13,678 bases of DNA from Calditrichota bacterium (lineage in GTDB: Bacteria; Calditrichota; Calditrichia; RBG-13-44-9; J042). Under the pieces are notes generated by a model, which saw only the letters and a list, made by a program, of their open reading frames with translations, was not told the DNA's origin and did no database searches. The DNA lies in assembly GCA_013150955.1 (NCBI GenBank), contig JAADJD010000054.1, forward strand, positions 1 to 13,678, given 5' to 3'. A program made the translations under genes and the position numbers. Of the stretch, positions 11-13,678 are shown one piece after another (the first letter of the stretch is position 1; every line of letters starts with the position of its first letter).

Positions 11-179
11 ATCCCAAATAATGCATTAAACCGCAAATCACGAGTATGAATTCGAAAAAAATCAACAAAATAGCGAATATATCCGGGAAAATATTTTCAT
101 CCAGATAGAATCCAGTGCATTTTATTATTTTTATTGGTTTTCATACGTGTCATTCGTAGGCGAATGCGTAATCTAAGTT
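11..179 (+). repeat. Dispersed 169-bp inverted-end repeat, copy 1 (forward)
   Basis: Full-length copy of the intergenic repeat family, in the orientation called forward here. It opens with ATCCCAAATAATGCAT and closes with GAATGCGTAATCTAAGTT, an imperfect inverted pair. Inside each end lies a second inverted block built on CGAAT-x-ACACGAATGAA, degenerate on the left in this copy. The centre is AT-rich and asymmetric, with the landmarks TTTTCATCCAGATAGAATCC and TTTTATTATTTTTATTGG shared by other copies. No open reading frame lies in it. Its outer bases diverge from the other copies, so it is probably an older insertion. Confidence 0.85.
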
Positions 180-1610: not shown

Positions 1611-1674
1611 GGAAATATTTTCTAATAGTAAATAAGGAAATAGTATTAAAGCATAAACATTGGGGGGAATTCAA

Positions 1675-3351
1675 ATGAAACGGTATATCCAGGCATATAT
1701 TTTGATTTTAATATCCCTAAACCCAATAATAAGCCAGGATAATAAAAATCACCACTTGGCTCCTTATATAAATGATAGAGAAAAAGAATTATTCTATCAG
1801 ATGTACGTTGAACATTCTGAAGAAATACCTGATAACTGGCAAAGCGAACGCAAAATCCAAAATGAGAATTTATACAATTATAATTTACCATTTATTAAAA
1901 AAGATTTTCGTGTAAATGATGATTTTGGGGATGCTTATCAGTTTTTTGCTGATATAGCAGTTGGTGATTCCGGGAATTTTATTATCGTTTGGGTTGATGA
2001 ACGGCAGGAGGATAGATATGTATATGCACAACGTTTCGACAAAAATGGTGTAGCATTAAGTCAAAATTTTAACGTTGATTCAATGGGTGTTACAACAAAG
2101 TGGACACCTCCAACTGTCATGTTTTATAAGACAGGTAAATTTCTCGTTTCCTGGCAGGATTACAGAAATGCTAATTGGGATGTTTACGCTCGAAGGTTTA
2201 ATCACAATGGTAAACCTTTACAAAAGGCATTTCGTGTAAATGATGATTTCGACAGAACCATACAAGGATCTCCGTCTGTTGCAATAGACAGTTCTGGAAA
2301 TACTTTTATTGTATGGAGAGATTGGCGTGATGATGTAGGAAATGATGAACGAAATATTTATGCACAGCTTTACGATCCAAATGGCAATGCCATTAATGGA
2401 AATTTTTTGGTAAACCCTCAACAAAATAACATCGATCATGGCGCACCTGCAGTTGCGACAAATAAAGCGGGGCATTTCGTCGTTGTGTGGGAGGATAAAC
2501 GGAATGGAAACTGGGATATTTATGCCAAATTGTACAATCATCGGGGTGAGGTAATTCTTGAAAATTTTCGTGTGAATGATGATTCGGGTACTAGAAATCA
2601 GTGGTATCCAGAGGTCGCTGTTGACGAGTCCGGGAATTTCATAATCGTTTGGCAAGATTATCGAAACGGGAACTGGGATATTTATGCCCAACGCTTCGAT
2701 TCCAATGGTATCCCACTCGGACAAAATTTTCGAGTGAATGATGATTTAGGAAGCAGTGATCAATGGTATCCAACTGTTGCAGTTGATGATTTGGGAAACT
2801 TTGTTATCGTATGGGAAGACAAAAGAAATGATAGCGGAGATATTTATGGTCAGCGCTATAATCATGAAGGCGTTCCACTGGGAAACAATTTCATAATTAA
2901 TACAGAAAAATCAAACAGACAGGGAGCACCTAGGGTCAAATTGTGGAATGGAAAAATATATACCGTATGGGAAAGTATACACGATCCAACTGCCGGCTAC
3001 GACATCTGGGCCAATGTGCTGGATTGGAATGATCCTTACACCCGCATTGCAGAGAATGGTTCAGCCGGGGTGAGCACTTACCATCTGGCTCAAAACTACC
3101 CCAACCCCTTTAACCCAACAACTACCATACAGTACACCTTACCTAAAGCAGGGAAGGTAATACTAAAAATCTACAACTCCCTGGGCCAGGTGGTGCGCAC
3201 GCTGGTGGAGGAGCATCAACCGGCGGGCCGCTACACGGTGCAATGGAATGGCCGGGATGACTTTGGGCGGCAAATGCCGGCAGGCATTTATTTTTACCGC
3301 CTGAAAGCCGGCCAGTTTGAGCAGGTGCGCAAAATGGTGCTGGTGCGGTAG
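1675..3351 (+). CDS. Secreted multi-repeat (beta-propeller-like) protein with type IX sorting domain
   Basis: Exported protein of 558 residues. I chose the ATG at 1675, preceded by a G-rich ribosome binding site at 1662-1668. A TTG at 1660 would only add five residues. Residues 1-20 are a signal peptide (MKRYIQAYILILISLNPIIS|Q). From about residue 78 to 450 there are six to seven units of roughly 45-57 residues with the pattern FRVNDD...VAVDxSGNFIIVWxDxRNGNWDIYAQRFDxNGxPLGQN. Unit starts are near 78, 131, 176, 233, 288, 342 and 396. The periodicity suggests a beta-propeller or similar surface scaffold. Residues about 469-558 are a type A sorting domain ([17 protein letters not shown] to RKMVLVR) used for export and anchoring by the type IX machinery. 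No catalytic motif is visible and the ligand is unknown. The tail is more GC-rich than the repeats. Confidence 0.88.
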   Translation: MKRYIQAYILILISLNPIISQDNKNHHLAPYINDREKELFYQMYVEHSEEIPDNWQSERKIQNENLYNYNLPFIKKDFRVNDDFGDAYQFFADIAVGDSGNFIIVWVDERQEDRYVYAQRFDKNGVALSQNFNVDSMGVTTKWTPPTVMFYKTGKFLVSWQDYRNANWDVYARRFNHNGKPLQKAFRVNDDFDRTIQGSPSVAIDSSGNTFIVWRDWRDDVGNDERNIYAQLYDPNGNAINGNFLVNPQQNNIDHGAPAVATNKAGHFVVVWEDKRNGNWDIYAKLYNHRGEVILENFRVNDDSGTRNQWYPEVAVDESGNFIIVWQDYRNGNWDIYAQRFDSNGIPLGQNFRVNDDLGSSDQWYPTVAVDDLGNFVIVWEDKRNDSGDIYGQRYNHEGVPLGNNFIINTEKSNRQGAPRVKLWNGKIYTVWESIHDPTAGYDIWANVLDWNDPYTRIAENGSAGVSTYHLAQNYPNPFNPTTTIQYTLPKAGKVILKIYNSLGQVVRTLVEEHQPAGRYTVQWNGRDDFGRQMPAGIYFYRLKAGQFEQVRKMVLVR

Positions 3352-3368
3352 GTACATCCGCACCAGCA
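3338..3368 (+). terminator. Perfect 11-bp stem-loop spanning the stop codon
   Basis: TGCTGGTGCGG (3338-3348) pairs perfectly with CCGCACCAGCA (3358-3368) around a 9-base loop that holds the TAG stop. No run of T follows (GTTCCTTATAAA), so it is not a canonical intrinsic terminator. It may instead protect the 3' end of the transcript or slow ribosomes at termination. Confidence 0.45.
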
Positions 3369-3378
3369 GTTCCTTATA

Positions 3379-3549
3379 AACCCAAATTAAAGCGTTAAAT
3401 CACGAATCACGCGAATGAATTCGAAAAAAGTCATCAAAATAGTTAACAAATCTGGAAAAACATTTTCATCCAGATAGAAACCAGTGCATTTTATTATTTT
3501 TATTGGTGTTCATTCGTGTAGTTCGTAGGTTAACGCTTAATCTGGGATT
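3379..3549 (+). repeat. Dispersed inverted-end repeat, copy 2 (forward)
   Basis: Full copy starting AACCCAAATTAAAGCGTTAA and ending TTAACGCTTAATCTGGGATT. The inner inverted block is CACGAATCACGCGAATGAAT on the left and TTCATTCGTGTAGTTCGTAGG-like on the right. The terminal stem uses AGCGTTAA/TTAACGCT in place of the usual ATGCAT-type bases, and both ends changed together. TTATA occurs just before the left end (3374-3378) and again at 3551-3555, a possible but unconfirmed target duplication. Confidence 0.88.
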
Positions 3550-3642: not shown

Positions 3643-3812
3643 AACCCAGATTAAGCAATAGCCTACGAATGATACGAATTAACACAAATAAAACCAATAA
3701 AATACATTAGATTGTGTCTGGATGAAAATATGTTCCAGGGTTTATTCGCGATTTTGTCGATATTTTTTGGTTTCATTCGCGTGATTCGCGGCTTATTGCA
3801 TAATTTGGGATT
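3643..3812 (-). repeat. Dispersed inverted-end repeat, copy 3 (reverse)
   Basis: Full copy in reverse orientation. On the plus strand it begins AACCCAGATTAAGCAATAGCC and ends GCTTATTGCATAATTTGGGATT. The terminal stem carries GCAATA/TATTGC, different from both the consensus and copy 2, yet still self-complementary. It ends only 21 bp before the ATG of the peptidase gene at 3834, so it must lie in or next to that gene's promoter and leader. Confidence 0.88.
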
Positions 3813-3833: not shown

Positions 3834-4733
3834 ATGATTAAAAGAAAATGGATTCACAATCTTTGGTACCTTGGTTTTATTGGGTTTCTGGGAAGTATCT
3901 TTGATGCATTAAAATCACTCAAAATTTTATTTTTATTCTTTTTAACTCCTTTTGTTTCTTCTCTTATTCGCACCATCATTGGGAAAAAGAAAAAACAATA
4001 CAGAAAATTACAGATTTCTTTACTGGACTTCTTTTGCCATCCAAAATTACTCATACAGATCCTAATTCACCTTTTGGGCCAGACAATCGCCTTTTTAAGA
4101 ATAAAAGGCAGCCCTCCTTCGCCGGACAAATTTAAACCGAACACCTCATTTTCACTACCGTTTGAAGGTTTCTGGACAGTTGTAAACGGAGGAATAACCA
4201 AAGAAAATTCACACTCCTGGAATGTGTTGAATCAGCGATATGCTTACGATTTTTTAATTCTGGATGACAATGGCAAAACCTACCGAAATAAAGGAAATAA
4301 ATTGGACGATTATTTTGCATTCGGTAAACCTGTTCTGGCTCCTGCTGATGGGATTGTTATTCAAGTCCAAAATCATATCCCAGACAATCCTCAACCAGGA
4401 ACCATTGATGTAGGCGCAAAAGATTTTCGAGGCAATTTTGTAATTATTAAACATTCTGACATCGAATACAGTTTTCTTGCTCATTTACAATACGGAAGCA
4501 TTCGGGTAAAAGTCGGTGATCGTGTAGTGAAGGGCCAGTTGATAGGTCTTTGTGGCAATTCAGGACACTCCACAGAACCCCATCTTCACTTTCATGTACA
4601 GGACCACCCCAATTTTTTCCTGGCAGTCAGTTTGCCGATAATGTTTGAAGATTTTTACCGTAGACAAGGTGATAAAATTTCATTCTTGAAACGCGGCTAC
4701 ATTTCTAAAGGCTGGCAGATTAAACCCAAATAA
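3834..4733 (+). CDS. Membrane-anchored M23 (LytM-type) peptidase-like protein
   Basis: Probable cell-wall metallopeptidase or an inactive relative, 299 residues. The N-terminal third is hydrophobic, with candidate membrane segments at about residues 10-26, 29-48 and 71-88 separated by a lysine-rich stretch (KKKKQYRK). The C-terminal domain is M23-like: AFGKPVLAPADGIV (152-165), FLAHLQYGSIRVKVGDRVVKGQLIGLCGNSG (214-244) and EPHLHFHV (248-255) with H250-x-H252. The canonical HxxxD at the first zinc position is not present. The segment reads NQRYAYDF, with D139 but no H four residues before it, and H127 lies further upstream. No good ribosome binding site precedes the ATG. The last codons and the TAA stop lie inside repeat copy 4a. 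Family assignment is firm; catalytic activity is uncertain. Confidence 0.82.
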   Translation: MIKRKWIHNLWYLGFIGFLGSIFDALKSLKILFLFFLTPFVSSLIRTIIGKKKKQYRKLQISLLDFFCHPKLLIQILIHLLGQTIAFLRIKGSPPSPDKFKPNTSFSLPFEGFWTVVNGGITKENSHSWNVLNQRYAYDFLILDDNGKTYRNKGNKLDDYFAFGKPVLAPADGIVIQVQNHIPDNPQPGTIDVGAKDFRGNFVIIKHSDIEYSFLAHLQYGSIRVKVGDRVVKGQLIGLCGNSGHSTEPHLHFHVQDHPNFFLAVSLPIMFEDFYRRQGDKISFLKRGYISKGWQIKPK

Positions 4734-4838
4734 TGCATGAAAACCACGAATCACGTGAATGGAGCCCCAAAATATCTAAAAACCACAATTAAACTTCGAA
4801 ACAAATCATCATCCTGATATGATCCAATGGATTTTATT
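4723..4838 (+). repeat. Dispersed inverted-end repeat, copy 4a (forward, truncated)
   Basis: Left part of a forward copy. It starts AACCCAAATAATGCAT and runs through CCACGAATCACGTGAATG to CCAATGGATTTTATTA, where it stops abruptly against the inverted copy 4b. Its first bases overlap the end of the peptidase gene and supply the TAA stop at 4731-4733. The missing right part is not found beyond 4b. Confidence 0.8.
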
Positions 4839-5007
4839 ATCCCATATTATGCATTAGCCTACGAATCATGCGAATTAACACCAATAAAAATAATTAAATG
4901 CACTTGATTCTATCTGGATGGAAAAATTTTCCCGGATATATTCGCTATTTTGTTGATTTTTTTCGAATTCATCCGTGTCATTCGTGGTCTTATACATAAT
5001 CTGGGTT
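4839..5007 (-). repeat. Dispersed inverted-end repeat, copy 4b (reverse)
   Basis: Full-length reverse copy from ATCCCATATTATGCAT to ATACATAATCTGGGTT. Its centre (TTCCCGGATATATTCGCTAT) is the reverse complement of the centre of copy 1. It abuts truncated copy 4a, so the two form a head-to-tail inverted composite that could fold back on itself. Confidence 0.87.
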
Positions 5008-10788: not shown

Positions 10789-10862
10789 TTTCTTTGATAA
10801 GTGAATTGCGGCTTTCTCCGATACCCCCCTGCTGAAAGTCTGCCGGTGTGGTGATCATATTC

Positions 10863-11029
10863 AACCCAAATAATGCATCAAACCACGAATCACACGAATG
10901 AATACAAAAAATATCAACAAAATCGCGAATAATCCCCAAACCTATTTTTTATTCAGATACAACTAATGTATTTTTTGTTATTATTCGTTTTAATTCGTGT
11001 AATTCGTAGGCAATTGCATAATTTGGGTT
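10863..11029 (+). repeat. Dispersed inverted-end repeat, copy 5 (forward)
   Basis: Full 167-bp copy with the best-preserved ends. AACCCAAATAATGCA on the left mirrors TGCATAATTTGGGTT on the right with one mismatch in 15. The inner inverted block is CCACGAATCACACGAATGAA against TTAATTCGTGTAATTCGTAG. It lies 74 bp after ftsX and 105 bp before the serA start. Confidence 0.9.
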
Positions 11030-11086
11030 CAATCTTATTGGCAAACAGCCCACTTTCATTCATTTTCCAGAATAAATTCGCCTTTG

Positions 11087-12866: not shown

Positions 12867-13035
12867 AACCTAATAATGTCCTTAAACCGCGAATCACACG
12901 AATAAAACCAAAACACATCCACAAAATCGCGAATAAACCACAAAACACATTTTCATCCAGACACAATCCAATGGATTTTATTGGTTTTATTTGTGTTCAT
13001 TCGTGTCATTCGTAGACGAATGCATCATCCGGGAT
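12867..13035 (+). repeat. Dispersed inverted-end repeat, copy 6 (forward)
   Basis: Full 169-bp copy with a degenerate left end (AACCTAATAATGTCC) and the right end GAATGCATCATCCGGGAT. The inner inverted block is well kept (CCGCGAATCACACGAATAAA and TTCATTCGTGTCATTCGTAG). It fills the space between the convergent serA and YbaK-type genes. Its last base overlaps the stop codon of the minus-strand gene. Confidence 0.86.
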
Positions 13036-13361
13036 CAGACGTGTTCCGCAAATGAAGCGATCACCGGCTCCACCAACCGCTGGTAATCATCGAATCGCAT
13101 CTTAATCACCTCGGTGTGGGTGGCGGCATTAAAATAAATCTCTTCGCCTTCGGTTAGCGAACGGTCAACAAAGGTGGGCAGGCCGTAAAGCATACCAAAC
13201 GGTGGCATGGCTCCCAGTTCACAATTGGGGAACAGGTTGGAGAACTCTTCTTCGCTGGCCAGTTCCACTTCCCGCGCACCGGCAATTTCTTTAAACTTAT
13301 CCAGATTAATTTTGTAAGAGGCAGGAACCACGGCCATTACTGGTTCGTCGTCGGCTTTAAC
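13035..13361 (-). pseudogene. YbaK/ProX-type aminoacyl-tRNA editing domain, N-terminus missing
   Basis: The longest ATG-started frame (13337 down to 13035) gives 100 residues beginning MAVVPASYKINLDKFKEI. It contains VELASEEEFSNLFPNCELGAMPPFG and FNAATHTEVIKM, hallmarks of the YbaK/EbsC editing-domain family that deacylates mischarged tRNAs. Family members are about 150-160 residues, and this ATG corresponds to a methionine in their middle. Coding character continues upstream as VKADDEPVM up to 13359, exactly where the repeat end AACCCAAATAATGCAT begins. Beyond it the frame runs into a stop at 13383-13385. The N-terminal half, with a lysine important in E. coli YbaK, is absent, so the gene is very probably inactive. 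Confidence 0.8.
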
Positions 13362-13375
13362 CCAAATAATGCATT
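13359..13375 (+). repeat. Repeat-family terminus next to the transposase (copy 7, 17 bp)
   Basis: AACCCAAATAATGCATT matches the left terminus of the 169-bp family (as in copies 4a and 5). Similarity ends at 13376, where TGCATATTCAG replaces the family's AAACC. It is either the terminal inverted repeat of the insertion sequence or the remnant of a repeat it entered. Confidence 0.7.
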
Positions 13376-13420
13376 TGCATATTCAGATTTTACTTGCAAA
13401 AGCGGGATAAAACAATAAGA

Positions 13421-13464
13421 ATACTCCTTTTGAGCGACCCAATGAATCGAATCAAAAGGAGTAT
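13421..13464 (+). promoter_or_regulatory. Hairpin burying the transposase ribosome binding site
   Basis: ATACTCCTTTTG (13421-13432) and CAAAAGGAGTAT (13453-13464) form a perfect 12-bp stem with a 20-base loop. The inner bases CGA/TCG can add three more pairs. The right arm contains AAAGGAG, the ribosome binding site for the ATG at 13471. In an mRNA that includes both arms the site is hidden. Confidence 0.75.
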
Positions 13465-13470
13465 AAAAAA

Positions 13471-13678
13471 ATGAAAGAATCAACGCCTGCCAAAATTACC
13501 GATTCCCACTTTGTTAATCAAGTAAGAATTGAGTTCACCTCCAAGTCGATCACCGCCTGGGGAGGACTTGGGGTGTTAATGGGGAAATTTTTAGAAAAAA
13601 TCCAATTTAGAGATTGGGTGGAGCGCCATATACCGATTGAGGAGAAATCAAACAATCGTGGTGGGGTTTACGAGAAGG
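13471..13678 (+). CDS. Transposase, N-terminal fragment (runs off the window)
   Basis: Open frame of 69 codons continuing past the window edge: MKESTPAKITDSHFVNQVRI, then FTSKSITAWGGLGVLMGKFLEKIQFRDWVERHIPIEE. The pattern of an opening segment, then 'TAWGGL..L..FLEKI.F.DWVE', resembles the N-terminal region of IS4/IS1380-group DDE transposases. The catalytic DDE residues would lie outside the window, so the family is a resemblance, not proven. Translation is expected to be limited by the hairpin at 13421-13464. The C-terminal part and the right end are needed to tell whether the element is intact. Confidence 0.72.
   Translation, partial: MKESTPAKITDSHFVNQVRIEFTSKSITAWGGLGVLMGKFLEKIQFRDWVERHIPIEEKSNNRGGVYEK

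Follow-up and report, generated by a model that had tools for sequence, protein, structure and literature searches.

A 15-bp terminus common to a probable IS1380-type insertion sequence and an abundant family of 165-bp repeats in a Calditrichota bacterium

The window analysed here, a stretch of 13,678 bp that makes up an entire contig (C56) of a Calditrichota draft assembly (66 contigs, 4.07 Mb), stops inside an insertion sequence (IS): base 13678 is the contig end, and the last 320 bases are the left end of the cut-off element (Table 1). The window also carries copies of a short repeat, and the terminus of that repeat family stands in front of the transposase gene, where another gene is broken. 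Does this terminus belong to the IS, whose transposase might then mobilise the repeats in trans, or did the IS insert into a copy of the repeat? The original prediction preferred the first reading and named the second as its competitor. We searched the whole draft for ends of the IS and sampled the genome in targeted stretches (~1.08 Mb, about a quarter of the genome) for the repeats. An Rfam search of the window gave no match. Elsewhere in the window, two adjacent genes (692-1579 and 1660-3351) encode secreted proteins with C-terminal sorting domains of the YPNPFNPTT type, and the first of them looks frame-disrupted near position 1450.

Table 1. Features of the window that relate to the IS and the repeats (MITEs).
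Feature	Position	Strand	Remarks
MITE copy, right end degenerate	13..174	+	
MITE copy	3381..3546	+	
MITE copy, 165 bp	3645..3809	-	
Truncated MITE copy	4725..4840	+	next copy directly after
MITE copy, 165 bp	4841..5005	-	
MITE copy, 163 bp	10865..11027	+	exact duplication TTCAA (10860-10864 and 11028-11032)
Diverged MITE copy	12869..13033	+	
ybaK-like gene (aminoacyl-tRNA editing), C-terminal part, IS-interrupted	13035..13360	-	N-terminus at start of contig C1
Left copy of 5-bp target duplication, TTTAA	13356..13360	.	right copy at start of contig C1
Left terminal inverted repeat (TIR) of IS, CCCAAATAATGCATT	13361..13375	+	identical to MITE consensus bases 1-15 and to IS right end
IS 5' non-coding stretch	13376..13470	+	unrelated to MITE body
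Probable IS1380-type transposase, first 69 codons	13471..13678	+	cut by contig end

The extent of the IS could be read from its other copies. DNA corresponding to 13353-13632 is found at two further contig ends, C60 and C14, at ~97% identity, and the bases outside the terminus differ among the three sites (...GGC TTTAA/CCC in C56, ...GGG TTAAA/CCC in C60 and ...GGA TTTAT/CCC in C14, the slash marking the boundary). The first base of the IS is therefore C13361, and its terminus reads CCCAAATAATGCATT. The 17-bp terminus originally described, AACCCAAATAATGCATT, is present at 13359-13375, but its initial 'AA' belongs to the duplicated target. Other features of the predicted arrangement held: the distance of 112 bp from the terminus to the transposase start is borne out by an ATG at 13471, the frame of the ybaK-like gene breaks exactly at the TTTAA directly outside the terminus, and the repeat profile aligns to the left end of the IS only over positions 1-15, so that similarity to the repeats does stop after the terminus.

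A pattern search for the terminus gave right-end candidates at three contig ends (C1, C13 and C47), where the sequence internal to it is near-identical and not that of a MITE; all end ...GAGTACGCTCTAATGCATTATTTGGG. Queries made of the outermost 26 bases on the left and 30 on the right of the IS match the genome at three left ends and three right ends and nowhere else, while reversed-sequence controls of both queries return no match in the genome. Both ends of all copies read CCCAAATAATGCATT, a perfect TIR of 15 bp, as had been anticipated for other genomic copies of the transposase. The right end of the window copy is at the start of C1, where ATGCATTATTTGGG is followed by a second TTTAA and then by the missing N-terminus of YbaK. 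The order expected beyond the contig end, a right end of the form ...GGGTT and then the start of YbaK, was thus recovered, with C1 beginning ...CTCTAATGCATTATTTGGG, TTTAA, GGATGACC..., in frame. When the flanks from C56 and C1 are joined with one TTTAA, the result is one uninterrupted 156-aa frame (MPIKKRLTEF...FAEHV) that encodes a complete aminoacyl-tRNA editing domain (PF04073, 7e-31), and the site restored in this way has no repeat within it. An intact gene in a sister species is 85% identical over residues 1-156, and its DNA aligns gap-free across the insertion junction. A second copy of the IS, in C14 and C13, is flanked on both sides by TTTAT. Together, the right end with its TTTAA, the restored ybaK-like gene and the second copy with TTTAT indicate that the terminus is the IS's own and not the leftover of a repeat. 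The third copy (C60 and C47) was paired by elimination alone, and its flanks, TTAAA and TTCAA, agree in 4/5 bases. The target sites of the IS fit WTNAW, and the copies differ among themselves at 4-6 positions in 272 bp. Immediately next to copy 3 is a MITE nested in a further MITE (C60 1339-1503), and copy 2 lies in the loop of a palindrome, GCGCAGGA-TTTAT-TCCTGCGC, apparently a portion of a different dispersed repeat.

The 69 visible N-terminal residues of the transposase match the NCBIfam IS1380 profile (NF033539) weakly (E 0.068). They align at 55% identity with the N-terminus of a 468-aa protein that a Yonathbacteria MAG encodes on a short contig. This homologue matches NF033539 over its whole length (1e-47) with 163 bits against a curated cut-off of 180, and therefore appears to represent a diverged branch of IS1380; it matches PF13701 above that profile's cut-off. 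Contig C47 reaches farther inward than the other right ends and includes the end of a reading frame, ...LDNLAVTLNCIAVESKLAPD and a stop, 157 bp before the right end, with its last ~20 residues resembling the C terminus of the homologue by eye (LNCIAVES / LNCNAVAL). The middle of the transposase, searched for with the homologue's protein, is in no contig of the 66-contig draft, and with it the stretch that would hold the DDE catalytic residues. We estimate the length of the IS at ~1.67 kb from the 110 bp that precede the ATG and a transposase as long as the homologue (~468 codons). The homologue's own right end reads ...CTGCATTATTTGGG and then ATAAA, that is, TGCATTATTTGGG and ATAAA, while its left end is lost beside another transposase gene; this terminus thus travels with the transposase type in an unrelated genome as well.

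TIRs of the IS1380 family start CC(C/T), as does the short CCCAAATAATGCATT at both ends of every copy, and the AT-rich target duplication of 4-5 bp found in that family is represented by TTTAA and TTTAT in two copies. The short TIR starting CC, the 5-bp duplication, the estimated length and the assignment of the transposase through profiles of its close homologue all suggest a place for the element with IS1247, ISPsp9 and ISEcp1. IS1247 is 1672 bp long with IR 16/13 and DR 5 (PMC3281130), and ISPsp9 is 1718 bp long with IR 21/18 and DR 5 (PMC4133298). The present IS differs from these relatives in its own TIR sequence, in the diverged position of its homologue and in a middle region that is unassembled. 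A second IS1380-type transposase gene in the genome (C18 36-1266; 38-40% identity) carries a frameshift and is truncated where the contig begins; ~135 bp upstream of it lies CCCAGATTACGCAATAG, which resembles the other end of the MITEs. The same contig has an array of short CAAAACATA / GGTTGTTTT motifs at 1960-2200.

The repeats were characterised from 83 elements in the 1.08 Mb that could be paired with both ends within 26-base matches. Their modal length is 165 bp, and the consensus starts CCCAAATAATGCATTA, the full form being CCCAAATAATGCATTAAACCGCGAATCACGCGAATGAA...TTAATTCGTGTAATTCGTAGGCTAATGCATAATCTGGG, with a long hairpin in the predicted RNA fold (-41 kcal/mol). Exact flank duplications of 5 bp are present in 33/83 elements, compared with a mean of 7.5 and a maximum of 15 when right flanks are shuffled, and duplications of 3, 4, 6 or more bp occur in 0-1; flanks agree in at least 4/5 bases in 52/83. 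The target motif is W-T-N-A-W, as at the IS sites. Nearly half of the elements with exact duplications (15/33) are nested in another MITE, and the host MITE is restored when the inner element and one duplication are removed, which is direct evidence of precise insertion. Mean pairwise identity among the elements is 81%. A count of 612 matches from nhmmer was discarded because the near-palindromic repeats match on both strands; once opposite-strand doubles are removed, 382 matches remain in the sampled sequence, 170 of them at least 150 bp long, and the profile covers 4.1% of the 1.07 Mb sampled. If the sample is representative, the genome would hold ~650 near-full-length MITEs and ~1450 matches including fragments.

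At what points, then, do the IS and the MITEs correspond? The MITE consensus matches the IS over 15 bases at the left end and 16 at the right, and the matches start at the same base as counted from the 5-bp duplication. Between the IS TIR and the second MITE end, CCCAGATTATGCATT, only 13/15 bases agree. Profile alignment to the IS ends found no similarity beyond the terminus. The 15-mer, with at most one mismatch, occurs 82 times in the 1.08 Mb, and all 82 occurrences lead either into MITE-like sequence (by a loose filter) or into this IS, the listed exceptions to MITE-like sequence being exactly the three IS right ends. A count of MITE ends in 40 genomes of the phylum gave 1392 here, two in the sister species, one each in two more and none elsewhere. 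In the same set the transposase was found in this genome and, in a distantly related form, in one relative from the class; the IS1380-type element of that relative has 30% identity and ends CCTAAATTTCTAATG, and of two copies inspected one has a TTTAA duplication. The sister species, which belongs to the same genus, lacks the transposase and has a single 306-bp element (contig C15 of that species, 1800-3400) whose ends are those of the MITEs but whose interior differs; it is flanked by an exact ATAAT duplication. Neither MITE ends nor relatives of the transposase were detected in viral contigs, and the MITE body was not detected in plasmids. The IS and the MITEs therefore share ends, duplication length and target motif, both insert precisely, and they co-occur in a species-limited manner. 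Given the same 15-letter tips, the IS of the window or a close relative most likely spread the repeats through the genome.

We are thus fairly confident in describing a ~1.67-kb IS1380-type IS with a 15-bp TIR and a 5-bp duplication at WTNAW, and 165-bp type II MITEs that keep only its TIR and are probably moved in trans. In this process, the IS1380-type transposase, encoded by this IS or by a close forerunner sharing its ends, would bind the TIR common to both elements and move the MITEs in trans, which could have amplified them to ~650 full-length copies. Such mobilisation is suggested by the shared ends, duplication length and target motif and by co-occurrence.

A different IS1380-type element with the same TIR, now lost or diverged, may instead have amplified the MITEs, with the present IS arriving later and its ends shared by descent. 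We regard this possibility as serious, if rather unlikely. Divergence is greater among the MITEs (81% identity) than among the IS copies (4-6 differences in 272 bp), which makes the MITEs look older on average; most of the amplification may therefore be owed to an earlier relative sharing these ends and not to the present copies. The frameshifted gene on C18, with its MITE-like upstream end, could belong to this historical source. However, the TIR of the present IS matches the main MITE end perfectly, and the sampled quarter of the genome showed no complete alternative element with these ends. It is very improbable that the IS inserted into or beside a pre-existing MITE and that the terminus is the MITE's, even though MITEs are dense here (a diverged copy lies at 12869-13033), nested insertions are common and IS copy 3 abuts a MITE. 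All three IS copies, at sites unrelated to one another, begin with this terminus and carry its mirror image at the right end, and no repeat body follows the right end of the window copy; this reading, the competitor named at the outset, was rejected for the window copy on the restored ybaK frame, the empty site in the sister species and the comparison of the three copies. Chance or convergence between the IS and an unrelated, for example structural or regulatory, repeat would accommodate the unrelated bodies and the long hairpin, but is the least credible explanation given 15/15 bases flush with the same 5-bp duplication at the same WTNAW target in both elements and a 15-mer whose sampled occurrences all lie in MITE-like contexts or at the IS ends.

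Returning to mobilisation by an IS1380-type transposase, the relation of an IS to type II MITEs is known in kind, while an IS1380 parent and this copy number are less usual. The repeats resemble the type II MITEs of prokaryotes as defined in a review (PMC10969869) in being short, non-coding, multicopy and hairpin-forming, with TIRs, a target duplication and homology to an autonomous IS that does not extend past the TIR, but differ from those described there in the 5-bp WTNAW duplication and the IS1380 parent, a family that the review does not mention. Their ~650 full-length copies and ~4% of the sample stand at the top of the range in the same review, where ERIC in Photorhabdus has 711 copies (PMC10969869). 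The parent was assigned here, as for MITEPye1 and the IS1182-family ISPye18, by a shared TIR and duplication (PMC11578231); that pair belongs to another IS family and has 1-3 MITE copies per chromosome (PMC11578231). In the openly accessible papers that were searched, we found no described IS1380-MITE pair.

The finding connects a bacterial repeat of unusual abundance with a defined transposase. Its exact ends, target motif and empty sites make it possible to test directly whether an IS1380-type enzyme mobilises MITEs in trans. We incline, with some reserve, to the view that such a transposase drove one of the largest known bacterial MITE expansions (~650 full-length copies, ~4% of the sample, repeatedly nested) within a single species of the genus, from a parent element present in only three copies. 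The locus also lends itself well to asking why a non-autonomous element could multiply hundreds-fold in a single species when the IS presumed to be its parent remained at three copies.
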